Positions 10,057-12,826 of a stretch of 64,000 nt of DNA are shown one piece after another. The DNA lies in the NCBI GenBank assembly GCA_902531765.1, contig CACAFC010000001.1, positions 1 through 64,000 of the forward strand, read 5' to 3'. The translations under genes were made by a program, and so were the position numbers. This DNA is from an uncultured Pelagibacteraceae bacterium. GTDB lineage: Bacteria; Pseudomonadota; Alphaproteobacteria; Pelagibacterales; Pelagibacteraceae. Under the pieces are notes generated by a model. The model did not search any database and was not told the DNA's origin. It saw nothing but the letters and a program-made list of their open reading frames with translations. Each line of letters starts with the position of its first letter. Position 1 is the stretch's first letter.

Positions 10057-10139
10057 AATTTATAACTTTTCTCCATATTATAAATATTTGCGTCATTATA
10101 ATCATTTATAAAAGATAATTATAAATTATATGTATATAT

Positions 10140-10733
10140 ATGTCATTTGAACTACCTAAATTAGACTACTCTAAAACTGCTTTATCTCCAATAATGTCTG
10201 AAGAGACTCTCGATCTTCATCATGGAAAACACCACCAAACTTACATAACTAATCTTAATAATCTAATTAAAGATACTGATATGTCCAAAATGTCCTTAGA
10301 AGAAATTATTATTAACTCTTCAAAAGATGAATCTAAAATTGGAATTTTTAATAATGCTAGTCAACATTGGAACCATATATTGTTCTGGAAATGTATGAAA
10401 CCAAATGGCGGGGGTTCAATGCCTGATAAGCTAAAAAAAAGAATTGAAACAGATTTTGGTAGTACAAATGAATTTAAAAAAAAATTTACACAAGCAGGTA
10501 TTACCCAATTCGGATCTGGGTGGTGTTGGTTATCAATTAACAGTGGTAAATTAGTGATAAGTAAAACACCTAATGCTGAGAATACATTAATTCAAAATAT
10601 GAAACCTATTTTGGCATGTGATGTGTGGGAACATTCTTATTATGTAGATTACAAAAATAAAAGACCTGAGTACTTAGAGAACTTTTACGAGAAATTGATT
10701 AATTGGGAATTTGTTGAATCTCAACTAGATTAA
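10140..10733 (+). CDS. sodB: Superoxide dismutase, iron type
   Basis: A 197-residue Fe/Mn superoxide dismutase that converts superoxide to hydrogen peroxide and oxygen. Metal-binding histidines are seen in HHGKHHQTYI near residue 27 and in NNASQHWNHILFW near residue 76; the final aspartate and histidine are in ACDVWEHSYYVDY near residue 160. The ASQ-x-WNH and GSGWCWL segments fit the Fe branch better than the Mn branch, but metal choice cannot be proved by eye. It follows xsc by 132 bases and is closed by its own hairpin terminator. Confidence 0.95.
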   Translation: MSFELPKLDYSKTALSPIMSEETLDLHHGKHHQTYITNLNNLIKDTDMSKMSLEEIIINSSKDESKIGIFNNASQHWNHILFWKCMKPNGGGSMPDKLKKRIETDFGSTNEFKKKFTQAGITQFGSGWCWLSINSGKLVISKTPNAENTLIQNMKPILACDVWEHSYYVDYKNKRPEYLENFYEKLINWEFVESQLD

Positions 10734-10734
10734 T

Positions 10735-10772
10735 GGGGGCGTTCTGTTGTCACGTCCCCAGACCTTTTTTTT
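10735..10772 (+). terminator. Rho-independent terminator of sodB
   Basis: GGGGGCGT (10735-10742) pairs with ACGTCCCC (10752-10759) in an 8-base stem with one G-T wobble and a 9-base loop. A run of eight T residues follows at 10765-10772. The stem starts right after the sodB stop. Its left arm and loop contain the 14-base sequence that recurs at 11577. Confidence 0.8.
10736..10749 (+). repeat. Direct repeat copy 1 (GGGGCGTTCTGTTG)
   Basis: An exact 14-base copy is found again 841 bases downstream, and similarity continues for a few bases (TCA versus CCA). The sequence is GC-rich compared with its surroundings. The pair brackets the outer-membrane barrel gene. Confidence 0.7.
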
Positions 10773-10869
10773 ATAACCCTTATTTAGCAACAAAATTGAT
10801 ATAATTTTATCTAGAAACTTTAGAAAATTAGGAATGATTCCTGTGTATTTTCCGTGTAAGGATTTTCTT

Positions 10870-11478
10870 GTGAAAAAAATTTTAACAATAAGCCTTTTAA
10901 GTTTAATTTTTACTTTAAACGCTCATAGTGAAAGTTATAGATATGGTTCACTAGGTTTAACCAAAAACATTGCTGACAATCCGCATGATCTTGGTGGGTT
11001 CACATATGGTGATGCAGACGCAGATGACGAAGGCTCGGTTATCTCGTATGGATTTGGAACTAGATCAGGCAACCTTGCTTTAGAAACAGAGTTTTCTTAT
11101 TATGAAGAAGTTACTCTAAAATTAGAACGTAGAATAAGTGTTGATGTTACAACTTTTTCAATAATGGAAAATATTATGTACACATCTGAATTTGGTTCTA
11201 ATGGATATATATTAGCCGGTCTTGGATTAGGCTTGGGTCATACAAATGTAGACACAAGCGCTAGATTTAGTACTCCATTTGACAAGGATAATGATAATAC
11301 AGACTTTGCTCACCAAATAATTTTAGGTTACGGAATGGAAAACTATGAAATAGTTTTTAAACAATCTGAATTTGGTATAGTAAAGGGAGGAAGTGGAACA
11401 ACATCAGCAGGTAGCAGATATAATCCCGAATTGTTTGATAATAGAATCAAATCTATATCGTTAAGATATAAATTTTAG
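10870..11478 (+). CDS. Outer-membrane beta-barrel protein
   Basis: I place the start at the GTG at 10870, 36 bases inside the longest frame, because AAGGA lies about 8 bases upstream and the product then opens with a textbook signal peptide (MKKILTISLLSLIFTLNAHS). The mature part of about 180 residues alternates hydrophobic and polar residues in many short strands with glycines (GFGTRSGNLALETEFSYY, GYILAGLGLGLGH, HQIILGYGMENYEIVF). It ends in ISLRYKF, with the C-terminal phenylalanine used by the barrel-insertion machinery. Its function, perhaps pore or surface antigen, is unknown. It stands alone, with the sodB terminator before it and a repeat-bearing GC-richer stretch behind it. Confidence 0.75.
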   Translation: MKKILTISLLSLIFTLNAHSESYRYGSLGLTKNIADNPHDLGGFTYGDADADDEGSVISYGFGTRSGNLALETEFSYYEEVTLKLERRISVDVTTFSIMENIMYTSEFGSNGYILAGLGLGLGHTNVDTSARFSTPFDKDNDNTDFAHQIILGYGMENYEIVFKQSEFGIVKGGSGTTSAGSRYNPELFDNRIKSISLRYKF

Positions 11479-11500
11479 ATAATAAAAATTATCTCTTTCT
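11477..11500 (+). terminator. Weak terminator of the barrel gene
   Basis: AGATAAT (11477-11483) and ATTATCT (11488-11494) form a 7-base AT-rich stem with a 4-base loop. It overlaps the stop codon and is followed by CTTTCT. Its stability is low, so the call is tentative. Confidence 0.35.
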
Positions 11501-11576
11501 AGTCGTCCTTTAGTCGTCAAAACTATTTAGAACTTTAAATTAATGTTGCTATGATCAGAGAAACACGAAATAGGAA

Positions 11577-11601
11577 GGGGCGTTCTGTTGCCAGGTGCCC
11601 C
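11577..11601. repeat. Direct repeat copy 2 within a GC-rich hairpin
   Basis: GGGGCGTTCTGTTG (11577-11590) repeats the sodB terminator arm and loop exactly. Here it sits in its own hairpin: GGGGC (11577-11581) pairs with GCCCC (11597-11601), and an inner CTG/CAG stem is possible. No T-run follows on the plus strand. On the minus strand it lies about 16 bases past the stop of the candidate small ORF, so it may serve as that gene's weak terminator. Confidence 0.55.
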
Positions 11602-11616
11602 CATACCCCAGTGTAC

Positions 11617-11808
11617 TTAAATAACTTTAGACCGACTTCTTATGTGTCCCAGGACTTTTCCACTATTTTTTCCTGTCTTCACTAAATAACCACTAGTGCC
11701 ATTATCGTTAGCACTTACGGTTTTTGCATTTCGAAACATAAGTTGATTTAGCCTTGCATTTTTTGAGCCTCGGCTAAACAAACTCAGTATTCTGTGCATT
11801 CTTTTCAT
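11617..11808 (-). CDS. Candidate 63-residue basic protein
   Basis: The ORF is preceded by AAGGAAA about 4 bases before the ATG, a good ribosome site. The product is highly basic and polar (MKRMHRILSLFSRGSKNARL, then KTGKNSGKVLGHIRSRSKVI) with no membrane helix or cysteine. I do not recognise it. Such a charge pattern could suit nucleic-acid or ribosome binding, but that is speculation. The codon mix is GC-richer than that of neighbouring genes. A non-coding alternative cannot be excluded. Confidence 0.45.
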   Translation of the reverse strand: MKRMHRILSLFSRGSKNARLNQLMFRNAKTVSANDNGTSGYLVKTGKNSGKVLGHIRSRSKVI

Positions 11809-12055: not shown

Positions 12056-12826
12056 TTACCTAATTATAGTTTTAACAGACCCTAATTTATCTATCTTACC
12101 TGTATAAAGGCCTTTACCAATTGGAACAACTCCTACAGTAGATCCTGTAAATACATAAAAATTTTTATTTAAATTTAATTTATCTTTTTTAATTTTATTC
12201 AAAACAAATCTTAATGAGTTTAATGGATTAATAAAAACTGCACTAGTATTACCATTTATATTTTGTTTTGTTTTTTTGTTTGAAATATTAGTTTTTAAAT
12301 TTCCGATATTTATTTTTTTATACTTTTTCTTTTGACCGATCAAAAACTTAACATTAGCTCCAAAATCGCTACTTAAATCTCCAAATGAGGTAATTCCTTT
12401 TTTTCTCTGTCTATAACCCACAATCTCAATACAAGGAGCCATATGAGATATAAATTTTGCGATATTTCTCATTGTGACCACTGATTTAGAATTAAAAAAA
12501 GATTTTTTAATTAAATAGCAAACTTCCAGCTCAATGCCAAAAGTGGTTTTACTAATCTTTACACTTCTACCGCTTTTTAAAAAATTATCTTTATAAACAG
12601 ATGCGTAAAATGGTTCTTTTTCTTTTAATTTTTTCATCACTGGAATTCCGGTTCCTCCAGCTTTGTAACCTATAATTGGTTTTTTAACTTTACTCTCACA
12701 AAGCATTCTAAATTTATTTGCCTCAGTTAGCTTTTTTGTAAACTTTCTAGGCAATGGTGCAATAATCTTGTTTTTAAGAAAAGCTTTAACCAACTTATTT
12801 GATGTTTTTTCTATTAATGAACTCAT
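12056..12826 (-). CDS. 2-keto-4-pentenoate hydratase family protein
   Basis: A 256-residue protein of the fumarylacetoacetate-hydrolase-fold hydratase/decarboxylase group (MhpD-like). Recognisable elements are the GYKAGGTG segment near residue 53, the metal-binding FGIELEVCYLI near residue 97, APCIEIVGYR near residue 131, and FYVFTGSTVGVVPIG near the C-terminus. Known members act on 2-hydroxy-dienoates or 2-oxo acids with a divalent metal. The sequence is lysine-rich and divergent, with an acidic residue apparently missing from the usual I-E-L-V-D segment, so activity is uncertain. It lies in a leftward run with two small membrane proteins and an M23 peptidase. Confidence 0.65.
   Translation of the reverse strand: MSSLIEKTSNKLVKAFLKNKIIAPLPRKFTKKLTEANKFRMLCESKVKKPIIGYKAGGTGIPVMKKLKEKEPFYASVYKDNFLKSGRSVKISKTTFGIELEVCYLIKKSFFNSKSVVTMRNIAKFISHMAPCIEIVGYRQRKKGITSFGDLSSDFGANVKFLIGQKKKYKKINIGNLKTNISNKKTKQNINGNTSAVFINPLNSLRFVLNKIKKDKLNLNKNFYVFTGSTVGVVPIGKGLYTGKIDKLGSVKTIIR

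Follow-up and report, generated by a model that had tools for sequence, protein, structure and literature searches.

Sequence comparison points to a family-wide system of exchangeable gene cassettes at copies of the tmRNA 3′ hairpin in Pelagibacteraceae

The barrel gene locus and its repeated element

The window, i.e., the whole stretch of 64,000 nucleotides analysed here, carries sodB, the gene of an Fe/Mn superoxide dismutase (10140..10733, + strand; Pfam Sod_Fe_C and Sod_Fe_N), followed on the same strand by a gene for a secreted outer-membrane beta-barrel protein of 214 aa (10834..11478), whose match to Pfam OMP_b-brl (E 2.7e-4) lies below the family's cut-off. The barrel gene more likely starts at the GTG at 10870, from which the reading frame leads straight into the signal peptide. 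The 14-mer GGGGCGTTCTGTTG occurs at 10736-10749 and again at 11577-11590, on the + strand in both cases; the duplication described in the initial annotation is confirmed in position, identity and direct orientation, with the two identical copies 841 bases apart. When extended, the repeat covers 24 nt at 88% identity. Two exact copies are present in the window and three in the 1.05-Mb genome, compared with 3e-5 and 5e-4 expected, respectively, from a zero-order model; the shuffle mean of 1.09 refers to matches with up to 3 mismatches and has no bearing on exact copies. Both copies can fold, in agreement with the proposal that each lies within a hairpin, but the stability of the second is ordinary (z -1.1 on the + strand and -1.65 on the - strand), while the copy at 10736 forms a good hairpin with a T run behind it (z -2.6, with 1 of 200 shuffles as stable).

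The meaningful strand of the repeat is the minus strand, on which the 14-mer reads CAACAGAACGCCCC and makes up the right-hand half of GGGGCACCTGGCAACAGAACGCCCC, an element of 25 nt. This element is the hairpin at the 3′ end of the permuted alphaproteobacterial tmRNA (ssrA). The third genomic copy of the 14-mer (G000:C13:8033) is the 3′ end of ssrA itself: ARAGORN finds a permuted tmRNA there, with the tag ANESYALAA, and the Rfam alpha_tmRNA model matches with 227 bits, its consensus finishing in the same ACCuGGCAACAGAA hairpin. Site A (11577..11601, - strand), a putative recombination site, is the canonical 25-nt form, equal to GGGGCACCTGGCAACAGAACGCCCC, and reaches the maximum matrix score of 58.8. 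Site B (10736..10759, - strand) scores 35.4, with the right half CAACAGAACGCCCC intact and the left arm diverged; on the + strand, it plausibly serves also as the sodB terminator, with its hairpin and T run. No match to the site matrix reached 8 bits in 295 kb of control loci, both strands counted. Because the sites used to build the matrix had been picked by their right half, the constancy of this half is partly a matter of selection, and right-side site variants exist.

The barrel cassette comprises 841 bp (10750..11590, + strand), from the end of the site B core to the end of the site A core, and its gene runs against the tmRNA strand. To its left, as seen on the tmRNA strand, a conserved ORF of 63 aa (11617..11808, - strand) abuts site A with its 3′ end, and a 256-aa gene (12056..12826, - strand) is the chromosomal neighbour of the array, outside the cassettes. 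The latter adjoins site A also in G061, AG-333-P14 and AG-337-M06. A barrel gene stably present in all relatives, which was named at the outset as evidence against a cassette, is not what is found: among 101 genus genomes, one other carries a homologue at 93% identity and three more at 43-44%. Around the barrel cassette, empty, filled, double-filled and replaced states are all observed. In G061, both sides of the window are present at 93-94% identity and the barrel cassette at 96%, with an extra 1598-bp cassette inserted between exact cores on the 63-aa side; its counterpart of site B is mutated to CAACTGAACGCCCC. The comparison with related genomes that the initial annotation called for is provided by AG-333-P14 (L268), where a 350-bp cassette replaces the barrel cassette between the same chromosomal neighbours on both sides. 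In AG-337-M06 (L311), the 350-bp cassette stands at site A with the barrel cassette next to it, of which the sequence covers the first bases.

The precise joint that was to be searched for is found in G032 and G016, where the 63-aa module is joined to the sodB module by one core, without the barrel gene. A different cassette lies between these two modules in G035, and G069 has the 63-aa module and one site, without sodB. In all four genomes, the junction lies between pnp and fabI (the names pnp, fabI, rnhA and thyX are read from protein sequences alone), which rules it out as the window's own chromosomal locus; these genomes therefore test the junction, while the locus itself is tested by AG-333-P14 and G061. 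Furthermore, sodB is probably older cassette cargo, as judged from its placement: its position between pnp and fabI in G016, G032 and G035, where G069 has no copy, makes it look like a cassette. It is present in 23 of the 101 genus genomes, and its homology to relatives at other loci spans 10077-10764. The 63-aa module is probably an older cassette itself; it occurs as a 369-bp cassette at ssrA in AG-359-P18 and beside pnp in G016, G032, G035 and G069. Its ORF is opposite in strand to the barrel gene and adjoins a site at three different chromosomal places. The initial suggestion that the bracketing repeats mark a gained or exchanged cassette is thus supported by exact joints and replacement alleles, on a larger scale than proposed. 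The ssrA copy, the minus-strand reading, the tmRNA origin of the repeat, the same junction at many loci across the family and the cassette-like behaviour of sodB go beyond that suggestion.

Flank exchange and cargo across the family

The exact 14-mer is present in 79 of 101 same-genus genomes, compared with 0 of 101 for the reversed control, and copies of the element often follow one another on one strand at distances of 0.2-3 kb. It is not the common genome-wide terminator considered in the initial annotation, as the genome of the window holds three exact copies, one of them at ssrA. Of the 141 sites in the first set (78 genomes), 69 share one left-flank cluster, that of ssrA; the other recurrent clusters, as identified from the listed neighbour genes, lie after rnhA, after pnp and after the 63-aa module of the window. 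Duplicated loci and sites with identical flanks were removed before counting, and the numbers for the larger set (358 sites and 128 cassettes) count distinct sequences rather than genomes. In 5048 site pairs, the left flanks agree to at least 90% over 150 nt, and in only 390 of them are the right flanks alike as well. In 138 pairs, it is the right flanks that agree to at least 90%, with left flanks alike in 81 and different in 57. From these counts, left and right flanks are seen to combine rather freely at the core, as far as sequence comparison can tell.

Variation in the left flanks reaches the bases immediately preceding CAACAG, and in the right flanks it lies after CAGAAC; the left arm of the hairpin follows the left neighbour, and the right half is nearly constant. 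A canonical left arm is found at 26 of 27 first array sites vs 23 of 46 later ones (P 6e-4), as if new cassettes entered at the anchored end of the array. Since the loci of the larger set had partly been fetched with the canonical 25-mer, this polarity test was redone on the 14-mer set alone. Sites are present in 87 of 94 Pelagibacteraceae (f1) vs 1 of 53 sister-family (f2) genomes. The exact 25-mer occurs in at least 120 stretches of named genomes, 119 of which are titled Pelagibacteraceae, Pelagibacterales or Ca. Pelagibacter. The remaining one among the matches listed, L320, is titled Rhodobiaceae bacterium MED766 and may be a misassigned SAR11 stretch. At the class level, CCTGGCAACAGAA is found in 32 of 142 genomes, mostly as a single copy each, and by this copy number there is no sign of arrays outside the family.

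The larger set comprises 128 distinct cassettes of 124-2783 bp (median 789), and the first set 45 cassettes from 25 genomes (167-2783 bp, median 841). In the latter, 53 of the 71 cassette ORFs of at least 55 aa run against the tmRNA strand (two-sided binomial P 4e-5). One cassette of 675 bp recurs, by sequence match, in six contexts at 96.4-99.7% identity over at least 670 bp: in the ssrA array of G025, after rnhA in G066, and in L162 (G019), L173 (G087), L241 (at ssrA) and L343. A cassette at ssrA is present also in the single-contig genome G103, and the tmRNA hairpin is whole beside inserted cassettes. Collectively, these comparisons show the gain, loss or replacement of whole cassettes exactly at CAACAGAACGCCCC, both at ssrA and at several other loci, as read from aligned genomes.

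The cargo is varied. Among 25 of the 35 Pfam families of 61 cassette proteins are two trypsin-like proteases, two GIY-YIG proteins, a polysaccharide lyase, an M23 peptidase, a DUF4268 protein, an inverse-autotransporter beta-domain, a methyltransferase and a cold-shock protein. The GIY-YIG cassettes are L189 (G092) and L165 (G097), one of them with a NUMOD1 domain, as in homing endonucleases. In L040, L042, L043, L045, L046, L047 and L050, near-identical signal peptides (e.g., MKKLLGIVVLGLM) are fused to unrelated mature parts, and the cassettes have end modules of 70-200 bp in common.

Candidate recombinase and alternative explanations

A 317-aa orphan tyrosine recombinase is encoded once each in 85 of 94 Pelagibacteraceae genomes and in none of the 53 sister-family genomes. 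This distribution parallels that of the sites (87/94 vs 1/53), the parallel being a single phylogenetic contrast. PF00589 is matched in 20 of the 26 site-bearing genomes searched, nearly always by one protein. In a second set of 30 genomes, tyrosine recombinase matches are present in 21 of 23 f1 and 7 of 7 f2 genomes; the f1 matches are weak and of the orphan type (60-84 bits), usually one per genome, and those of f2 are of the XerC/XerD type (133-159 bits), two in six of the seven genomes and one in the remaining genome. In the loci listed, the f1 recombinase is an ortholog in conserved surroundings. The residues R, K, H-x-x-R, H and Y, which form the catalytic set of tyrosine recombinases, are intact in all 34 f1 sequences aligned, and these are 54-92% identical to the recombinase of the window's genome. 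Homologues at 30-37% identity occur in 5 of 140 other class members. The NCBIfam integron-integrase model integrase_gron gives 28.3 bits (cut-off 265), and the best match is XerD with 71.5 bits (cut-off 329.6).

No site lies beside the recombinase gene in the recombinase loci read, the arrays being on other stretches or contigs. PF00589 has no match inside the arrays of the 26 genomes, no integrase is found among the 25 of 35 Pfam families of the 61 cassette proteins, and no serine recombinase was detected in any of the 26 genomes, with 10 of 14 control genomes positive. Eight f1 genomes have sites and no recombinase match, and six show the reverse; these mismatches may arise from draft assemblies and diverged sites. 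The orphan recombinase, acting in trans, is likely the best candidate for the enzyme, being well placed by its sequence and distribution rather than demonstrated. In the complete genome G012, its gene (G012:C1:616685, L177) lies at 0.617 Mb, near the likely terminus as placed by sampled GC skew (near 0.60-0.67 Mb, with coarse sampling), and ssrA at 0.956 Mb. The enzyme might have a second role in dimer resolution. Pelagibacter ubique is described as being without a dif/Xer system in an earlier study (PMC2731167), and a probable phage integrase, SAR11_0551, is mentioned in SAR11 hypervariable region 2 in a 2007 survey (PMC2217521).

We consider it quite probable that sites A and B are recombination sites of a Pelagibacteraceae cassette-exchange system based on circles, on the orphan tyrosine recombinase in trans and on DNA from relatives. 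More broadly, as far as sequence can establish it, the cassettes belong to an exchange system that spans the family and has copies of the tmRNA 3′ end as its sites. A cassette would excise as a circle with one site and re-insert via a conservative tyrosine-recombinase exchange within or next to CAACAGAACG, with the 317-aa recombinase as the candidate catalyst in trans; cassettes would reach new cells as DNA from relatives. Because the left neighbour keeps its arm and the right half hardly varies, an insertion at ssrA would rebuild the hairpin and leave the tmRNA whole. In the window, the barrel gene would be the cargo moved in this way, probably preceded in time by sodB and the 63-aa gene. Folding of the site, as in attC, may not be required, since the arms pair poorly at 35 of 358 sites.

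Among the alternatives, an unlikely reading, and the one that survives best, keeps the same sites and assigns them to another enzyme: the integrase of a visiting phage or element would recognise the tmRNA end, the cassettes would be its satellites, and the orphan recombinase would perform a task such as dimer resolution. Integrases that use the ends of tRNA and tmRNA genes are common, the near-terminal position of the G012 recombinase gene fits an Xer-like job, and the six genomes with the recombinase and without a site point in the same direction. Against this, the G012 ssrA site lies away from the terminus suggested by the sampled GC skew, and the nearest viral recombinases are either 23-29% identical or a fragment of 41 residues. 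Phage carriage finds no support, as no viral record with a cassette was found in IMG/VR or among the GenBank phages, the latter yielding no match to the exact 16-mer. In IMG/VR, the exact 16-mer has 14 matches, of which 6 look like chance and 8 resemble phage tmRNA ends. These eight contigs (L061, L062, L063, L064, L067, L068, L070 and L073) have a tmRNA-like left flank and the hairpin, and probably carry phage-encoded permuted tmRNAs.

It is very improbable that the element is simply a common terminator or RNA 3′ end, with flank differences reflecting ordinary gene turnover between conserved terminators. Such a reading draws on its identity with the conserved end of the alphaproteobacterial tmRNA, on the terminator-like T run of site B and on the 260 of 358 sites at which all five outer arm pairs can form. 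However, the 35 sites with two or fewer outer pairs still bound cassettes, the T run is absent after most sites, and exact joints are found both with and without cassettes. As a full account, a terminator family fails on the tmRNA-end identity, the swapped flanks and the presence of the same cassette, whole, at several loci. An equally improbable origin lies in homologous or illegitimate recombination at short GC-rich repeats without a dedicated enzyme, or in single-cell amplification chimeras: high homologous recombination rates are reported for SAR11 (PMC12374537) and most named source records look like single-cell amplified genomes, in which chimeras arise at short repeats, but the junction shares only about 14-25 nt and is constant among unrelated cassettes, the same cassette occurs at unrelated loci of different genomes with up to 99.7% identity, and an array is present in a single-contig genome.

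Relation to known systems and significance

The preferred reading, cassette exchange at tmRNA-derived sites, was compared with known systems. As in integrons, small cassettes holding about one gene apiece are strung in arrays, mostly in a single orientation; each has a short, GC-rich and imperfectly palindromic site, and a chromosomal tyrosine recombinase apparently serves them in trans. The polarity of the arrays, whose first sites are canonical and later ones variable, is a further resemblance. Mobile cassette arrays exchanged at the site are likewise observed, in the form of the 128 cassettes, the six contexts of a single cassette and the exchange of flanks. In contrast, the orphan recombinase scores far below the integron-integrase cut-off, and the site is a tmRNA hairpin, the consensus GGGGCACCTGGCAACAGAACGCCCC being, as judged by eye, without the attC core motifs (RYYYAAC/GTTRRRY). 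Furthermore, SAR11 has several anchors, the recombinase gene is not beside the array, with no adjoining attI and integrase, and the pairing of the arms is not always kept. A canonical integron is ruled out by the integrase score and, by eye, by the site. For the SAR11 hypervariable regions, the 2007 survey reports an absence of attC sites (PMC2217521).

Xer/dif systems and the pdif modules of Acinetobacter offer a parallel in that small modules with short sites at their ends use a tyrosine recombinase of the chromosome. In contrast, the sites found here are not dif-like, the ssrA anchor lies, by the coarsely sampled GC skew, apart from the likely terminus of G012, and Pelagibacteraceae are without strong XerC/XerD hits, the orphan recombinase being far below the XerC and XerD cut-offs. 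An Xer/dif system is not supported, in view of the weak Xer matches and the apparent position of ssrA in G012, and in keeping with PMC2731167. Prophages, islands and tycheposons that target tRNA or tmRNA genes share with the SAR11 cassettes a target at the end of a structural RNA gene, which is restored by the insertion. The SAR11 cassettes differ from them in carrying no recombinase, PF00589 lying elsewhere in the array-bearing genomes, and in forming units of 0.1-2.8 kb in arrays at several loci. Membership of integrons, of Xer/pdif modules or of self-integrating elements thus fails on the tested features, and the integron-like behaviour stands.

These findings suggest that gene exchange in SAR11 works much like an integron with different parts. 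We lean, somewhat beyond an even balance, towards the view that Pelagibacteraceae, which are without XerC/XerD, use the orphan recombinase for an independently evolved integron-like system, with tmRNA-hairpin sites, ssrA as the main anchor and tiny circulating cassettes. No description of a tmRNA-anchored cassette system was found in open-licence PMC full text. SAR11 cells are among the most abundant in the sea and have streamlined genomes, and to our knowledge few mobile elements are known in them. Such a system would give the orphan recombinase a testable job in a lineage said to lack Xer, and the 25-nt element would be a marker for the discovery of cassettes in metagenomes and may offer a natural tool for DNA insertion into SAR11. 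It would also account for the exact edges at which single genes, e.g., those of surface proteins, come and go, and the circulating cargo would include secreted proteins, proteases, a superoxide dismutase and nucleases. If this holds true, the cassettes would form a gene-cassette system of a new class and a principal driver of the SAR11 flexible genome.
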